Source: Bacteroidota bacterium
GTDB lineage: Bacteria; Bacteroidota; Bacteroidia; Chitinophagales; Saprospiraceae
Direction: 5' to 3'
Assembly (NCBI GenBank): GCA_029572935.1
Contig: JAKQHM010000003.1
Location: 1 to 49,369, forward strand
Length of the DNA stretch: 49,369 nt
Part shown: piece by piece, positions 13,102-30,483 of the stretch
How positions within the stretch are numbered: the first letter of the stretch is position 1
How the letters are laid out: every line of letters starts with the position of its first letter
Translations under genes and position numbers: made by a program
The notes under the pieces: generated by a model
The model's input: only the letters and a program-made list of their open reading frames with translations
What the model was told of the DNA's origin: nothing
The model's database searches: none

Positions 13102-13185
13102 ACCCAGTACCCAGTACCCAGTACCCAGTACACAGTACCCAGTACCCAGTACACAGTACACAATACACAGTACCCAGTACACAGT
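13102..13185 (+). repeat. 12-copy heptanucleotide tandem repeat (ACCCAGT/ACACAGT)
   Basis: Twelve consecutive 7-bp units, read directly: ACCCAGT four times, ACACAGT, ACCCAGT twice, ACACAGT, ACACAAT, ACACAGT, ACCCAGT, ACACAGT. The unit length is not a multiple of three, so copy-number change shifts any frame that crosses it. The array sits between the ATG at 13077 and the signal-peptide codons of the cargo gene. Confidence 0.95.
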
Positions 13186-25574: not shown

Positions 25575-25820
25575 ATGTGGACAGAAACCAATGACAGACT
25601 GACCATTCATCTGAGCTTCCGGGATTTTGCAGAAGCCATGGGCTTTATCCAGGAGGTAGCCCTCCGGGCTGAAAAAATGGACCACCACCCCACCTGGACC
25701 AACAGCTGGAATAAGGTGAGCATCGAGCTATGCACACATTCTGCGGGAAACAAAATAACCGAAAAGGACCGCAAACTGGCCCTGGAAATCGAAGAAATTT
25801 ACAGAAAATACAGGATCTGA
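25575..25820 (+). CDS. phhB: 4a-hydroxytetrahydrobiopterin (pterin carbinolamine) dehydratase
   Basis: An 81-residue PCD/DCoH protein that dehydrates 4a-hydroxytetrahydropterin formed by aromatic amino-acid hydroxylases. The catalytic signature is EKMDHHPTW, NKVSIELCTH and a final acidic helix starting ITEKD. It is shorter than the usual 95-115 residues because the first helix is missing, a form common in Bacteroidota. No phenylalanine hydroxylase gene is in the window. It probably shares a transcript with the M42 peptidase. Confidence 0.92.
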   Translation: MWTETNDRLTIHLSFRDFAEAMGFIQEVALRAEKMDHHPTWTNSWNKVSIELCTHSAGNKITEKDRKLALEIEEIYRKYRI

Positions 25821-25848
25821 AGGCTCGGATCCCGGTGAGAAATCAAAA

Positions 25849-26607
25849 TCAGGCTTCCATTTCCTGAATCAGATCATCCACCAACACCCTTCCACAGTGT
25901 TCACAGGCGATGATCTTCTTGCGCAGACCGATTTCCAGCTGCACCTGAGGAGGGATCTGATTGAAACAGCCCCCGCATGAATTCCTTTTGACCATGACGA
26001 CGGCCAGCCCGTTGCGGTAACGGTGGCGGATGGTATCGTAAGCATGCAGCAGTCGGGTCTCGATCTTCTTGCGAAGCTTATCGACCTTGCCCTGCAATGC
26101 GGCTTCTTCCTTGTCCGTTTTTTCCAGGATCTTTTCGAGTTCTGATTTCTTTTCCTCGAGCTCCTTCTCTTTGGCTTCCAGACGTTCTTTTACGGAATCC
26201 AGGTTGAGCTTTTTGGTTTTCAGCTGCTCGGCCGATTCCTTCATCCTTTTTTCAGAAAGCTGGATCTCGAGTCTCTGGAGGTTGATTTCTTTATTGAGCG
26301 CCTCGTATTCGCGGTTGTTTTTGACGCTGTCAAGTTGTTTTTCGTACTTCTTGATATTGTCCTCAGAAGTCTTGATGTTGGTCTTGTGATTGGAAATTTC
26401 CTTTTCCATTTCTGAAACAGAAGAAGAAACTTTGTTGATTTTGACGTTGAGGCCAGAAATCTCGTCCTCCAGGTCGCTCACGATCATGGGCAATTCTCCC
26501 TTGAGTATCTTGATCTGATCGATCTCGGAGTCAACGAGCTGCAGCTCATATAACTGTTTGAGTTTCAAGCCTATAGGAACCTCGGAAACTGGTGCTGTTT
26601 TTGCCAT
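25849..26607 (-). CDS. coiled-coil protein with C4 zinc ribbon
   Basis: A 252-residue protein: a long charged coiled coil (about residues 15-200), then a zinc ribbon with Cys pairs CGGC and CEHC near the C terminus (MVKRNSCGGCFNQIPP, KKIIACEHCGRVLVDD). This is the CT398/DR0291-like family, commonly encoded beside Nif3 as here, with 3 bp between the genes. Its molecular role is not established. A link to nucleic acid or envelope assembly has been suggested for homologues. It is the last gene of the pan-nif3 operon. Confidence 0.88.
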   Translation of the reverse strand: MAKTAPVSEVPIGLKLKQLYELQLVDSEIDQIKILKGELPMIVSDLEDEISGLNVKINKVSSSVSEMEKEISNHKTNIKTSEDNIKKYEKQLDSVKNNREYEALNKEINLQRLEIQLSEKRMKESAEQLKTKKLNLDSVKERLEAKEKELEEKKSELEKILEKTDKEEAALQGKVDKLRKKIETRLLHAYDTIRHRYRNGLAVVMVKRNSCGGCFNQIPPQVQLEIGLRKKIIACEHCGRVLVDDLIQEMEA

Positions 26608-26610
26608 ACG

Positions 26611-27405
26611 TCAGAAGTATTGTATTGGATTTGTAACAATTTTGGTACAATGGGTCGCAAAATTAGGGAATTTGCCTGAAATCAGCTCATATAATAATTC
26701 AATGGTGAATTGTTCGCTTTCGTAATGTCCTATATCGATCAGGACGATCCTGCCTTCTGCATCAAAAAAGTCGTGGTATTTAAAATCCGCCGTCACCAGG
26801 GCATCGGCACCCTGCAGGATGGCTTCCCGGGTCAGAAAGGATCCTGATCCCCCGCAGGCGGCAACCGTCCGAATGACTTTGCCGGAATCGAGGGTATGTC
26901 TGATGCCCCGGCAGCCAAACTGGAGTTTCAGATGTTCCAGAAACTCAGTCAAGGGAAGGGGCCGGATCAGTTCGCCGATCACACCGGCACCCTGGTCCTG
27001 AAGGCCCGCCATGCGTGGAGCCAAAACCCTTTGCCCGCTGAGCCCTATCTTTTGGGCGATCCGGCCATTCACACCGGGACCGAGGACATTGTCCAGATTG
27101 GTGTGGATGGCATAGATGGCGATGTCGGCCTTGATAGCGGCAATGAGGGTCCTGTTTACATAGTTGTCGAGGGCCAGACTCTTGACGCCACGGAAAATCA
27201 CCGGATGGTGACAAATGACGACATTGCATCCCAGATCCGACGCTTCTTTGATGACCTCTTCCGTACAATCCAGGCTGCACAGCACAGAACGTACCGACCA
27301 GTCCGGATTTCCGGTCAAAAGCCCGCTGTTATCGTAGCTCTCCTGAAGGTTTAAAGGAGCCAGTTCTTCCAGGAAGCGGGTGAGGTCTGATATTTTAACC
27401 ATCAT
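26611..27405 (-). CDS. Nif3-like dinuclear metal centre protein
   Basis: A 264-residue Nif3/YbgI-family protein, often annotated GTP cyclohydrolase I type 2 although the true substrate is unknown. Metal-ligand motifs are VICHHPVIF, YAIHTNLDN and LIDIGHYESE. This is the short form without the central PII-like insert found in many Bacteroidota homologues (about 365 residues). Two ATGs lie in tandem (27405 and 27402). The start overlaps the flippase gene by 11 bp, which indicates translational coupling. Confidence 0.92.
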   Translation of the reverse strand: MMVKISDLTRFLEELAPLNLQESYDNSGLLTGNPDWSVRSVLCSLDCTEEVIKEASDLGCNVVICHHPVIFRGVKSLALDNYVNRTLIAAIKADIAIYAIHTNLDNVLGPGVNGRIAQKIGLSGQRVLAPRMAGLQDQGAGVIGELIRPLPLTEFLEHLKLQFGCRGIRHTLDSGKVIRTVAACGGSGSFLTREAILQGADALVTADFKYHDFFDAEGRIVLIDIGHYESEQFTIELLYELISGKFPNFATHCTKIVTNPIQYF

Positions 27406-28489
27406 AGGGTTGAAACGTTGATGAGTCCTTTGGTATTTGGCTTTGTTTTGCCTTTCTCCTGGAACGATTGAAAAAATACAAAACGATCAGCGCACTGACG
27501 CCCAGCAGGAGGTTGTTGGCAAATTGTGCACAGAAAAAGGAAATATTGGCAAAAGAAAAGGCATCCACCGGATGAATGTTGTAGTAGGCCAGAGACAGGA
27601 TCACCAGGTAGTGGTAACTGCCCATGCCACCCGGCGTGGGGATCAGCATGCCCAAAGAACCAAACACATAGACCACCAGTGCTGCTGAAAGAGAAAGATG
27701 GGCGGTGGGTTCAAAGGACTTGAGGGCGGAAAAGAGCATGACGTAAAACCAAACCCAGATCATGACCGTGTAAAACAGGAAAGCTCTGGGCTCCTTAATC
27801 CGCTTGATGGAGGACATTCCTTCGTAAAATCCCTTGATCCTGTGTCTCAGGCTGCGGATCAGGGGTAAATGCTTGATGGAATGCCGGGCCAGATAGATGG
27901 CGATCAAAGCCACCAGGCCGGTCAGGGGCAGGATGACCTTCTGATAGAGGGGCACCTCGGCCAGGTGCTTGTCGTACAAGGCACTGAATGCAGGGATTTG
28001 GGTCAAAACGGTGATCACAATGATCAGGCCCATCGCGATCAGATCGACGATCCGGTCGATGGCCACCGTACCCAGAGATTTGTCCAGGGGAATACCTTCA
28101 TAGCGGCTGATCATGGCCGCCCGGATGAATTCTCCGCTTCTGGGCAGACCCAGGTTGGCAAAATAGGACACGAGTATGGTCCCGATGGCATTGTACTTAT
28201 GAGGTTTATAACCCATTGGCTCAAAGATGATCAGCCAGCGAAGGGCCCTGAAGTAATTGCTCAGGTAAAAGGCCAGAAAGATCAACAGAACATAGTACCA
28301 TCTGACTGCAAGCAGATCCTTCCAGAGTTTTTTCCAGAGGATGCAATCTTCCGATGCGATGCCGGTCTCAGCGCAATAGGCCTGATAGGAGACCTCCTGT
28401 TTGAGGAATACCCAATAGAGGATGGCCACGCCAAGGCCAAGAAAAAGAATGAACTGTCCCGTTTTTTTGAGGAAGGAAGCCAAAATCAA
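27395..28489 (-). CDS. UPF0104/lysylphosphatidylglycerol synthase TM-region family protein
   Basis: A 364-residue polytopic membrane protein of the flippase-like (LPG synthase TM, UPF0104) family. It has about eight hydrophobic segments with hallmarks [27 protein letters not shown] and [13 protein letters not shown]. The family moves lipids or supports glycolipid transport; the substrate is unknown here. The first codon is TTG at 28489, and it overlaps the panD stop by four bases. No ATG is available near the first helix. The panD-flippase-nif3 order recurs in Bacteroidota, supporting an ancestral operon. Confidence 0.88.
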
Positions 28490-28839
28490 AGTTCTTTGAT
28501 CCGGTTCTTTTCATCGACAAAAATGGAGATCGGATGAAAATGCCTGGCTTCTTCAGGGGTCATGATGGCATAGGAAATGACGATGATGATGTCGCCGATT
28601 TCCGCTTTGCGCGCTGCAGCCCCGTTAAGGCAAACCATACCGGATCCTCGCTCGCCCTTGATGACATAGGTTTCAAAGCGCTCGCCGTTATTGTTGTTGA
28701 CGATCTGCACCTTTTCGCCCTCGTAGAGGTTGGCAGCTTCCATCAATTGTTCGTCGATGGTGATGCTTCCGACATAGTGAAGGTTAGCTTCGGTGACGGT
28801 AGCCCTGTGAATCTTGGATTTAAAAAATTGCAAAAGCAT
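28486..28839 (-). CDS. panD: aspartate 1-decarboxylase
   Basis: A 117-residue pyruvoyl-dependent enzyme making beta-alanine from L-aspartate for pantothenate and coenzyme A. The precursor cleaves itself at Gly24-Ser25 in YVGSITID, and Ser25 becomes the pyruvoyl group. Other family residues are [13 protein letters not shown] and SYAIM. The next pathway enzyme, PanC, is encoded 1.6 kb upstream on the same strand across an insertion. panD has its own -7 box, so it may be expressed independently now. Confidence 0.96.
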
Positions 28840-28843
28840 GGCG

Positions 28844-28851
28844 CAAAGTTA
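28844..28851 (-). promoter_or_regulatory. -7 box TAACTTTG four bases before the panD ATG
   Basis: On the minus strand TAACTTTG fits TAnnTTTG and ends four bases before the ATG. It would yield an essentially leaderless panD transcript. It lies on the panD side of the insertion, so it could keep panD and the genes after it transcribed. Confidence 0.45.
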
Positions 28852-28895
28852 TGAATTCCTTACGGATAGCCTATTTAAGTCAAAAAATCTCATAA

Positions 28896-28915
28896 AGTTC
28901 AATGCAATCAGGGTT
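28896..28915 (+). repeat. left copy of 20-bp direct repeat bounding the insertion
   Basis: AGTTCAATGCAATCAGGGTT occurs here and again at 30464-30483 in the same orientation, with no mismatch. The sequence to its left is the native panD leader. Flanking bases differ on both sides, so the match is exactly 20 bp. Confidence 0.9.
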
Positions 28916-29412
28916 ATCAGGTGAGCTGTCATGGCAATAATCTGGCTTAAAAATCATATGTAATTGATATTCTGATAGTTAAAATTGATTGGGCATAATA
29001 TTTGTTTTTCCATTAAGTCAATACCAAAGCCCTGTCTGTTCGCGATGATCCTTATTACTAACCGAAAGGAAGGTATGGGTAAATTTGTACTGGCAGTTTG
29101 GGAGAAAGCCAAAAGGCGCCAGGCGGTGGCGACGACCCTAAAGGGAGGTTTTGTGGGGATTACCAGGCAGAACTTGAGTCCAGAGGTTTTTGCTGTAATC
29201 AGACATCTGTGTTTAGCTGGGTTTTGTTGGGGCAAGTAATAACTAACTGACAAAATATATCAAGCAGATGTTTGGACAAAAAGAGAATACAAATGTGGTC
29301 CTTCAGATTAACGGAAAAGTTTTGGAACCATATGCAGTTTTTGACCTGGAGTGGCTTATTTTTGGTGCGTCCAGTGTCCTTTTTTAATTATAAAAAAAAA
29401 CTATAAGATACA
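28916..29412. other. left part of the insertion, no convincing gene
   Basis: Open frames at 28985-29239 (+, 84 codons) and 28954-29253 (-, 99 codons) oppose each other over the same DNA and have no domain; at least one is a shadow, probably both. A 39-codon frame at 29268-29387 (+) starts MFGQKENTNVVLQINGK and ends VLF. It looks protein-like but matches nothing I know. An A-rich run follows at 29388-29401. Confidence 0.35.
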
Positions 29413-29470
29413 ATTGACGCCGCCCTTTAGGGCGGTGATTGGGAAAAGAAAGTTTAACGGGCTTCAGCCC
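29413..29470 (+). repeat. left REP-like unit (two hairpins) before the transposase
   Basis: The first hairpin is CCGCCC-TTTA-GGGCGG (29420-29435) and the second GGGCT-TC-AGCCC (29459-29470), ending 14 bp before the transposase ATG. The first 25 bp of the unit (29413-29437) recur exactly at 30260-30284, where the second hairpin also recurs with one change. Confidence 0.85.
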
Positions 29471-29484
29471 TGAAAAAAACCAGT

Positions 29485-29916
29485 ATGGCTTACGTGAGAA
29501 TAATGATCCACGCAGTATGGGGAACCAAAAACAGAGAACCTCTTCTAAGCAAAGAACTTCGATCTAAAGTGATCGAACACATTATTGAAAATGCCAGAAC
29601 CAAAGACATTTTTATTGACCGTATAAATGGGTACACGGAACATTTGCATTGCCTGATTGGGCTTCATGCCGATATGAGCATTGCAAAAGCCATGCAACTT
29701 ATCAAAGGCGAATCAGCTTTTTGGCTGAACAGACAAAATTTTATGAAATCTAAGTTCGAATGGGCAGATGAGTATTTTGCAGTTTCAGTAAGCCCATCCA
29801 ACCTGAATAAAGTAAGAGCATATATCGACAGACAAGAGGAGCATCATAAGGGAAGAACTTTCCAACAGGAATATGAGGAGTTTCTTAATACATACCGTTT
29901 TAATGGTTTGGGCTAA
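29485..29916 (+). CDS. Y1 transposase, IS200/IS605-like or REP-associated (RAYT-like)
   Basis: A 143-residue single-strand DNA transposase of the HUH Y1 superfamily. The metal-binding pair is His53-Leu-His55 in GYTEHLHCLIGL, and the catalytic tyrosine is probably Tyr113 in KVRAYIDRQEEHHKG. The length equals that of complete IS200-like TnpA proteins, so it appears intact. Hairpins flank it on both sides: GGGCTTCAGCCC upstream, and GGGCTAAAGCCC (29910-29921) which contains the stop codon. Together with the many REP-like palindromes this points to a RAYT-type domesticated or REP-mobilising enzyme. No TnpB gene accompanies it. Confidence 0.88.
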   Translation: MAYVRIMIHAVWGTKNREPLLSKELRSKVIEHIIENARTKDIFIDRINGYTEHLHCLIGLHADMSIAKAMQLIKGESAFWLNRQNFMKSKFEWADEYFAVSVSPSNLNKVRAYIDRQEEHHKGRTFQQEYEEFLNTYRFNGLG

Positions 29917-29921
29917 AGCCC
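29910..29921 (+). repeat. hairpin GGGCTAAAGCCC containing the transposase stop codon
   Basis: A 12-bp perfect palindrome overlaps the 3' end of the transposase gene, and the TAA stop (29914-29916) is at its centre. It matches the second hairpin of the flanking REP-like units apart from the loop bases. Confidence 0.75.
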
Positions 29922-29940
29922 TGTTTTTTGCGATGGATTC

Positions 29941-30208
29941 CATCTCTCCGCCCTGTAGGACGGTGTTACTGTGGGCATCTCACCACCCTGAAGGGTACAG
30001 TTATTGTGGGCATCTCTCCGCCCTGAAGGGCACTGTAATTGTGGGCATCTCTCCGCCCTGTAGGGCGGTGTTACTGTGGGCATCTCACCACCCTGAAGGG
30101 GGTTGTTACTGTGGGCATCTCTCCGCCCTGAAGGGCGTTGTTACTGTGGGCATCTCTCCGCCCTTTAGGGCGGTACTGTGGGCATCTCACCACCCTGAAG
30201 GGCGGTGT
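29941..30208 (+). repeat. 35-bp palindromic tandem array, eight units
   Basis: Units begin at 29941, 29976, 30011, 30046, 30081, 30116, 30151 (32 bp) and 30183 (partial). Each begins CATCTC, carries a palindromic core related to CCGCCCTGAAGGGCGG, and except for the last ends GTGGG. Units 2, 5 and 8 share a CACCACCCTG variant; units 1, 4 and 7 share a TAG core; units 3 and 6 share a GAA core. The array therefore has a higher-order period of three units (about 105 bp). There are no variable spacers. Confidence 0.95.
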
Positions 30209-30259
30209 ATCAGAATTGCAGAGTTCGTATGCTCTGGTTCTGGGTTAGGCTGGCTTAGG

Positions 30260-30316
30260 ATTGACGCCGCCCTTTAGGGCGGTGCTTTGAAAGCTGAGCT
30301 TTACGGGCTTTAGCCC
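30260..30316 (+). repeat. right REP-like unit (two hairpins)
   Basis: This repeats the left unit: the same 25 bp with hairpin CCGCCCTTTAGGGCGG (30260-30284), then GGGCTTTAGCCC (30305-30316). The DNA from 30317 to 30463 holds nothing I recognise. Confidence 0.85.
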
Positions 30317-30463
30317 TGAACCTTGTACTTTAGGCGATTATCACCTTGATGGAGTACTTTGCTGGATGGGGCACTGCTAAGAATCCAGACTTATGATAGA
30401 GCCTTCTGAATTTGTACTATTATCGACTTGCTTGAAGGTATTTTCTCTCTCAGTTTCGTTTCC

Positions 30464-30483
30464 AGTTCAATGCAATCAGGGTT
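30464..30483 (+). repeat. right copy of 20-bp direct repeat, overlapping the panC 3' end
   Basis: This exact copy of AGTTCAATGCAATCAGGGTT covers the panC stop codon (30476-30478) and its last two codons or so. The sequence to its right is native panC. Confidence 0.9.

Follow-up and report, generated by a model that had tools for sequence, protein, structure and literature searches.

The panC and panD genes of the window (the whole stretch of DNA that was analysed, 49,369 nucleotides) are separated by a 1,548-bp insert that carries a Y1 (HUH) transposase gene together with its own palindromes and that lies between two copies of a 20-bp sequence. The insertion, the accompanying duplication, the content of the insert and its lack of terminal inverted repeats are either directly visible or strongly indicated in the sequence, and comparison with relatives supports a single ancestral copy of the 20-mer that would have been doubled by the insertion. 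As to how the segment arrived, we lean, at somewhat better than even, towards the capture of a cassette-bearing 1,548-bp segment at a staggered cut in the 3' end of panC and away from standard IS200/IS605 transposition.

The 20-bp Repeat and the Layout of the Locus

The 20-mer AGTTCAATGCAATCAGGGTT is found, letter for letter, at both 28896-28915 and 30464-30483, the two copies being 1,568 bp apart, and the exact repeat reported in an initial annotation of this DNA is thereby confirmed. As a control, 3,716 random pairs of 600-bp flanks were drawn from beyond the insert; exact direct repeats within these pairs were at most 13 bp long, no pair having one of 15 bp. The genes follow the order panC, gap, panD, LPG_synthase_TM, and the features of the locus are as follows:

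27395-28489, minus strand: LPG_synthase_TM gene, beyond panD
28486-28839, minus strand: panD (Pfam PF02261, E 1.3e-53)
28840-28859, minus strand: promoter-like TAnnTTTG motif, TAACTTTG, some 8 bp ahead of the panD start codon
28896-28915, plus strand: left 20-mer copy, separated from the panD start codon by 56 bp and interpreted as the duplicated target
28916-30463, plus strand: insert, 1,548 bp, between the two 20-mer copies
28916-29412, no strand: left arm, 497 bp, 38.6% G+C, without a recognised gene
29413-29474, plus strand: left palindrome pair, P1 CCGCCCTTTAGGGCGG at 29420-29435 and P2 CGGGCTTCAGCCC at 29458-29470, single-stranded DNA fold z -2.25
29485-29916, plus strand: Y1 (HUH) transposase, 143 aa (PF01797, Y1_Tnp, E 2.7e-25)
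29909-29922, plus strand: palindrome P2' TGGGCTAAAGCCCT, spanning the transposase stop codon
29941-30208, plus strand: tandem array, 35-bp period, 7.7 copies, with a P1-like palindrome in each copy
30260-30320, plus strand: right palindrome pair, P1 at 30267-30282 and P2 at 30304-30317, a direct repeat of the left pair, fold z -3.67
30328-30463, no strand: right arm, 136 bp, longest match 20 bp among the loci compared
30464-30483, plus strand: right 20-mer copy, read as the native panC 3' end and including the panC stop codon
30476-31324, minus strand: panC (Pfam PF02569, E 2.3e-86)

As the initial annotation had it, the right copy contains the panC stop codon and the left copy lies beside the panD leader. 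The gap between the two genes is 1,636 bp in the window, and once 1,568 bp is removed, the distance from the panC stop to the panD start would be 68 bp, which bears out the earlier estimate of about 70 bp. Identity between the surroundings of the two copies ends at 20 bp on both sides. When up to three mismatches are allowed, the two copies are the only occurrences of the 20-mer in the window (shuffled sequence averages 0.04), and the genome assembly searched (2.26 Mb in 61 contigs, 67% complete) holds the two exact copies and one match with three mismatches. The 20-mer is thus not a common dispersed repeat, a possibility that had been raised earlier, as it has no other close copy in this 67% complete genome.

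The Probable Ancestral panC-panD Junction

The panC and panD genes are adjacent in six of eight other genomes of the same genus, with gaps of 67, 75, 75, 170, 250, and 478 bp, and in the remaining two, panD falls outside the stretch examined around panC. In a scan of the wider family, panD adjoins panC on the same strand at 26 of 80 panC loci (gaps of 18-486 bp), while at the other 54, panD is absent from the stretch examined, partly owing to contig ends. The 32 linked relatives therefore have gaps of 18-486 bp against 1,636 bp in the window; the insert is absent from all 32, and no match to the transposase was found at any of the 88 panC loci (8 same-genus and 80 wider-family). The operon layout proposed for the pair should be treated with caution, as panC and panD are linked at only 26 of the 80 wider loci and a promoter-like motif precedes panD in the window and in 21 of the 32 linked relatives.

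Comparison with relatives indicates that panC natively ends in the 20-mer. The panC end of one same-genus genome (G003), TTGCATTGAACT, agrees with the 3' part of the 20-mer at 12 of 12 bases, and a second (G005) has its panC stop context in common with the 20-mer; other relatives diverge more. On the other side of the insert, the panD-side flank resembles the panD leaders of six relatives above shuffles (z 3.7, 1.6, 4.2, 2.1, 4.5, and 4.4), scores that lean on the common promoter-like motif and of which that for G003 is weak (z 1.6), while insert DNA of equal length gave z 0.7, -1.4, -1.2, 0.9, -0.8, and 0.4 against the same six leaders. PanC identity to the same-genus relatives is 53-57%, and no close relative with an empty site is among them.

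With the 20-mer placed by relatives at the original 3' end of panC, we interpret the second copy as a product of the insertion, in preference to two repeats that predate it. The earlier suggestion of recombination between pre-existing repeats was rejected on two grounds, namely that the 20-mer has no further close match in the assembly and that relatives suggest a single copy. Conversely, the claim of an insertion that separated a conserved panC-panD pair and produced a 20-bp duplication is supported by the adjacency within the genus, by the panC ends resembling the 20-mer in two genomes, and by the similarity of the panD-side flank.

The Transposase and Its Relation to Known Systems

The transposase harbors an HLH motif (EHLHC) and the motif YIDRQEEHH, the Y---Q--HH signature of subclass 1.2. 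It passes the NCBIfam model NF033573 (transpos_IS200) with 63.4 bits against a cut-off of 55 and remains below the cut-off of REP_Tyr_transpos (21.3 bits against 80). In Quentin et al. 2018 (PMC6006769), subclass 1.2 is characterized by Y---Q--HH, by low copy number, and by being generally without terminal structures of the IS200 type. Consistent with low copy number, the protein has one match in the genome assembly. Two other, distant genes with a Y1_Tnp domain are also present in this genome, at C19:461-676 and C40:44273-44491; they are longer, in open frames of 189 and 206 codons. Palindromes on both sides of the gene depart from the lack of typical terminal hairpins, and since PMC6006769 states this lack as holding "generally", the hairpins here do not exclude membership. 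Judged by its motifs, the transposase carries the subclass 1.2 TnpA-Y1 signature, and it resembles the members described there also in its short protein and in belonging to Bacteroidetes; it differs from them in having palindromes, in being carried on DNA flanked by a 20-bp target duplication, and in its W motif, which is WA and is given as WQ in a table of PMC6006769.

The window insert has in common with IS200/IS605 elements (subclass 1.1) the Y1 domain and a gene flanked on each side by hairpins of one orientation. Unlike those elements, it has a 20-bp duplication set apart from the hairpins, and multiple near-identical copies were not found in this genome, which is 67% complete. We know of no target duplication in the IS200/IS605 mechanism, and the view in the initial annotation that such Y1 transposases do not normally make one agrees with this. 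REPtrons, in which a RAYT gene is associated with REP sequences, are similar in that a single-copy Y1 gene is flanked by palindromes, but the palindromes of the window were encountered only beside the gene, its Y motif ends in Q--HH and not in NP, and its REP_Tyr_transpos score is below the cut-off.

The Insert and Its Palindromes

The palindromes delimit a core of approximately 0.9 kb (about 29413-30320), with a further 497 bp of DNA on its left and 136-143 bp on its right. The 20-bp duplication bounds a longer segment than this core, and the 20-mers do not adjoin the hairpins. The P1 palindrome has six matches with at most three mismatches in the genome, all of them within the insert, and the dispersed REP implied by the initial annotation was consequently rejected for this genome. 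Neither were other inserts with the same ends encountered: both the insert DNA and the 20-mer lack a further close copy, and no second copy of insert DNA is present in the 67% complete assembly. Terminal inverted repeats were sought at ends of 30, 60, and 100 bp and none was found, as 946, 971, and 844 of 1,000 shuffles, respectively, equalled the ends of the insert.

The two arms resemble little in the collections searched. The left arm has short, weak matches alone in other genomes of the family (32 of 397; best E 5.8e-5 over 27 bp), and no extended match to either arm was found among 167 loci compared. The left arm was considered as a gene fragment and this was rejected, its Pfam matches being sub-threshold only (PAC4, E 0.0038; Cry1Ac_dom-VII, 0.28; DUF3825, 0.13) and taken as chance. 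PHROGs gave no match for either arm, and Rfam a single match far below its gathering score. A plasmid source of the insert was likewise rejected after blastn against plasmids returned no match. Terminators and sigma-70 promoters are predicted within the insert at about the level of shuffled sequence.

Homologues in the Family

A homologue of the transposase is present in 116 of 199 genomes of the family. Thirty loci were compared, comprising the window and the 29 best-scoring loci from these 116 genomes, a sample that leans to close relatives. Both the HLH-type motif and Y---Q--HH are found in 29 of these 30, and the remaining locus (L036) has an interruption close to its start. In 26 of the 30 loci, the gene has perfect palindromes no more than 300 bp away; 54 were counted in 16.8 kb of near flank and 52 in 62.1 kb of more distant DNA, the density being higher near the gene in 25 of the 30 (Wilcoxon p about 1e-5); L036, whose frame stops after 10 residues and whose right flank is misplaced in the palindrome count, was retained in these counts. 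Tandem arrays occur near the gene at 10 and further out at 5 of the 30 loci. In two loci of other genera (L037 and L028), subclass 1.2 genes are flanked on each side by very long palindromes, perfect over 46-76 bp. One palindrome was sought in seven genomes and found in three, belonging to three genera, at five distinct places, all at most about 670 bp from a transposase gene. In those genomes, palindromes accompany the gene and are not spread. In the open-access literature searched, no paper was recognised that reports a cassette of this kind with a target duplication, or palindromes of subclass 1.2.

The closest homologue examined is found in a genome of the same genus (G002) and has 67% identity over 134 residues. 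The G002 element has the order P1-P2-gene-P2'-P1-P2, as does the window core, and its right end is weakly matched by the right palindrome pair of the window (E 0.012). The G002 transposase gene has 300-bp direct repeats (91%) on both sides; these form part of a large array at L168 5600-7525, in which 180-bp tandem units and the 300-bp direct repeats surround the gene, with palindromes in each. Next to the G002 element lie genes for a pterin-dehydratase-like protein and an M42 peptidase (L168 6769-8841), the counterparts of which in the window lie 3.7 kb from the transposase (window 25575-29916), and in G003, panC and these two genes are within 9 kb of one another. The window and G002 elements thus appear to occupy one ancestral neighbourhood, a coincidence that may reflect chance or short-range movement.

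How the Insert Arrived

In the reading we prefer, the target at the 3' end of panC would have been cut on its two strands about 20 bases apart, a segment with the subclass 1.2 Y1 gene and its own palindromes would have been joined into the opened site, and gap filling would then have left the 20-bp duplication. On this view, a cassette-bearing fragment would have been captured, in place of the core being moved as single-stranded DNA by the Y1 enzyme that it encodes. Capture is favoured because the duplication does not abut the core, because the insert lacks terminal inverted repeats, because no DDE or integrase gene was recognised in Pfam and PHROG scans of its reading frames, and because Ku, the usual end-joining protein, was found in none of the nine genus genomes searched (0/9). 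The lack of Ku also tells against this reading in one respect, in that end joining would need another route, and neither arm of the insert has a source that could be traced. A probable substrate of the transposase is the set of palindromes next to its gene, on which it would work as HUH enzymes do on DNA hairpins and which would have multiplied locally. It is improbable that subclass 1.2 Y1 proteins form compact cassettes, their palindromes multiplying at the gene alone, and that these cassettes, or DNA carrying them, move by an undescribed route that leaves duplications of about 20 bp; the G002 element, in which no flanking repeat was found, disfavours such a duplication as a general property.

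The two 20-mers might be the attL and attR sites of a small element placed at the panC 3' end by a tyrosine recombinase and mobilised in trans, with which the position at the 3' end of a still intact gene, the 20-bp identity at the ends, and the lack of terminal inverted repeats would agree. This is unlikely, given that the insert, in contrast to tyrosine-recombinase integrative elements, contains no integrase or other recombinase gene that was found, and that the 20-mer has no exact match in viral contigs and, beyond its two copies, no close match in the genome; panC is, to our knowledge, not a known attachment site. Similarly unlikely is a decayed DDE transposon with a long target duplication, as in the IS1202 group, that made the repeat and was later entered by the Y1 cassette. 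PMC10132070 gives duplications of 16-28 bp for this group, a size comparable to that seen here, and the arms of untraced origin do lie outside the palindrome-ended core. Nevertheless, the inverted ends and DDE transposase described there are not seen in the window insert, where no DDE remnant was recognised and the ends are not TGT/ACA.

The subclass 1.2 Y1 transposase may itself have moved the segment and, unlike IS200/IS605 enzymes, duplicated about 20 bp of target. The Y1 protein is the only enzyme recognised in the insert, palindromes are tied to the gene in relatives, and the G002 element beside a gene that lies 3.7 kb from the window transposase could mean short-range movement. We consider this quite unlikely: no direct repeat of at least 9 bp was found at the outer edges of the G002 element (160-bp stretches on either side compared), and in a comparison of filled loci alone, a direct repeat of at least 13 bp across the gene was found in 15 of the 30 loci including the window, mostly consisting of palindrome units, although target duplications may exist at others of these loci. 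For one of the loci (L021, in G120), an empty site was sought in six same-genus genomes, which gave no usable pair. Recombination or template switching that imported a segment already bearing the panC end, for example from a circle or a fragment of a related genome, would yield direct repeats without inverted ends, and the genes around the same-genus G002 element are indeed linked to panC in G003. This route is very unlikely, as it would need a donor with 20 bp of the panC end, none of which was found, and as the homology extends no further than 20 bp on either side. Least probable of all is an assembly artefact in which a loop was joined at a shared 20-mer. In its favour, another contig (L019) ends in a 22-bp repeat, the genome is 67% complete, and a 20-bp repeat corresponds to k-1 at k=21, a value that assemblers often use. 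However, the insert lies inside a 49-kb contig, a close relative of the cassette is chromosomal in the same genus, and the chance sharing of a 20-mer would be very unlikely.

Expression of panD and Significance of the Locus

The promoter-like TAnnTTTG ahead of panD, which may be a Bacteroidota-type promoter, is found before panD in 21 of the 32 linked relatives (6 of 6 in the same genus and 15 of 26 others), in comparison with 3 of 88 panC loci before panC and 85 of 6,400 random 25-mers (1.3%). Its position suggests that the panD transcript would be leaderless or near-leaderless. The split of panC and panD is probably tolerated because panD keeps a promoter-like motif that is common in relatives, and if this motif is a promoter, panD could be expressed despite the insert.

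According to PMC8266576, mobility of tnpA-REP has no evidence in its favour and the mechanism of dissemination is unknown. The present locus bears on how single-copy, apparently domesticated Y1 transposases change place together with their palindromes: the two junctions of a relocation can be read in it, albeit in the case of the related subclass 1.2. Subclass 1.2 genes in the family do have local partner palindromes, which provides a defined test substrate.

Elsewhere in the window (13102-13185), 12 copies of ACCCAGT are repeated in tandem within a long reading frame, the 7-bp unit not being a multiple of three.
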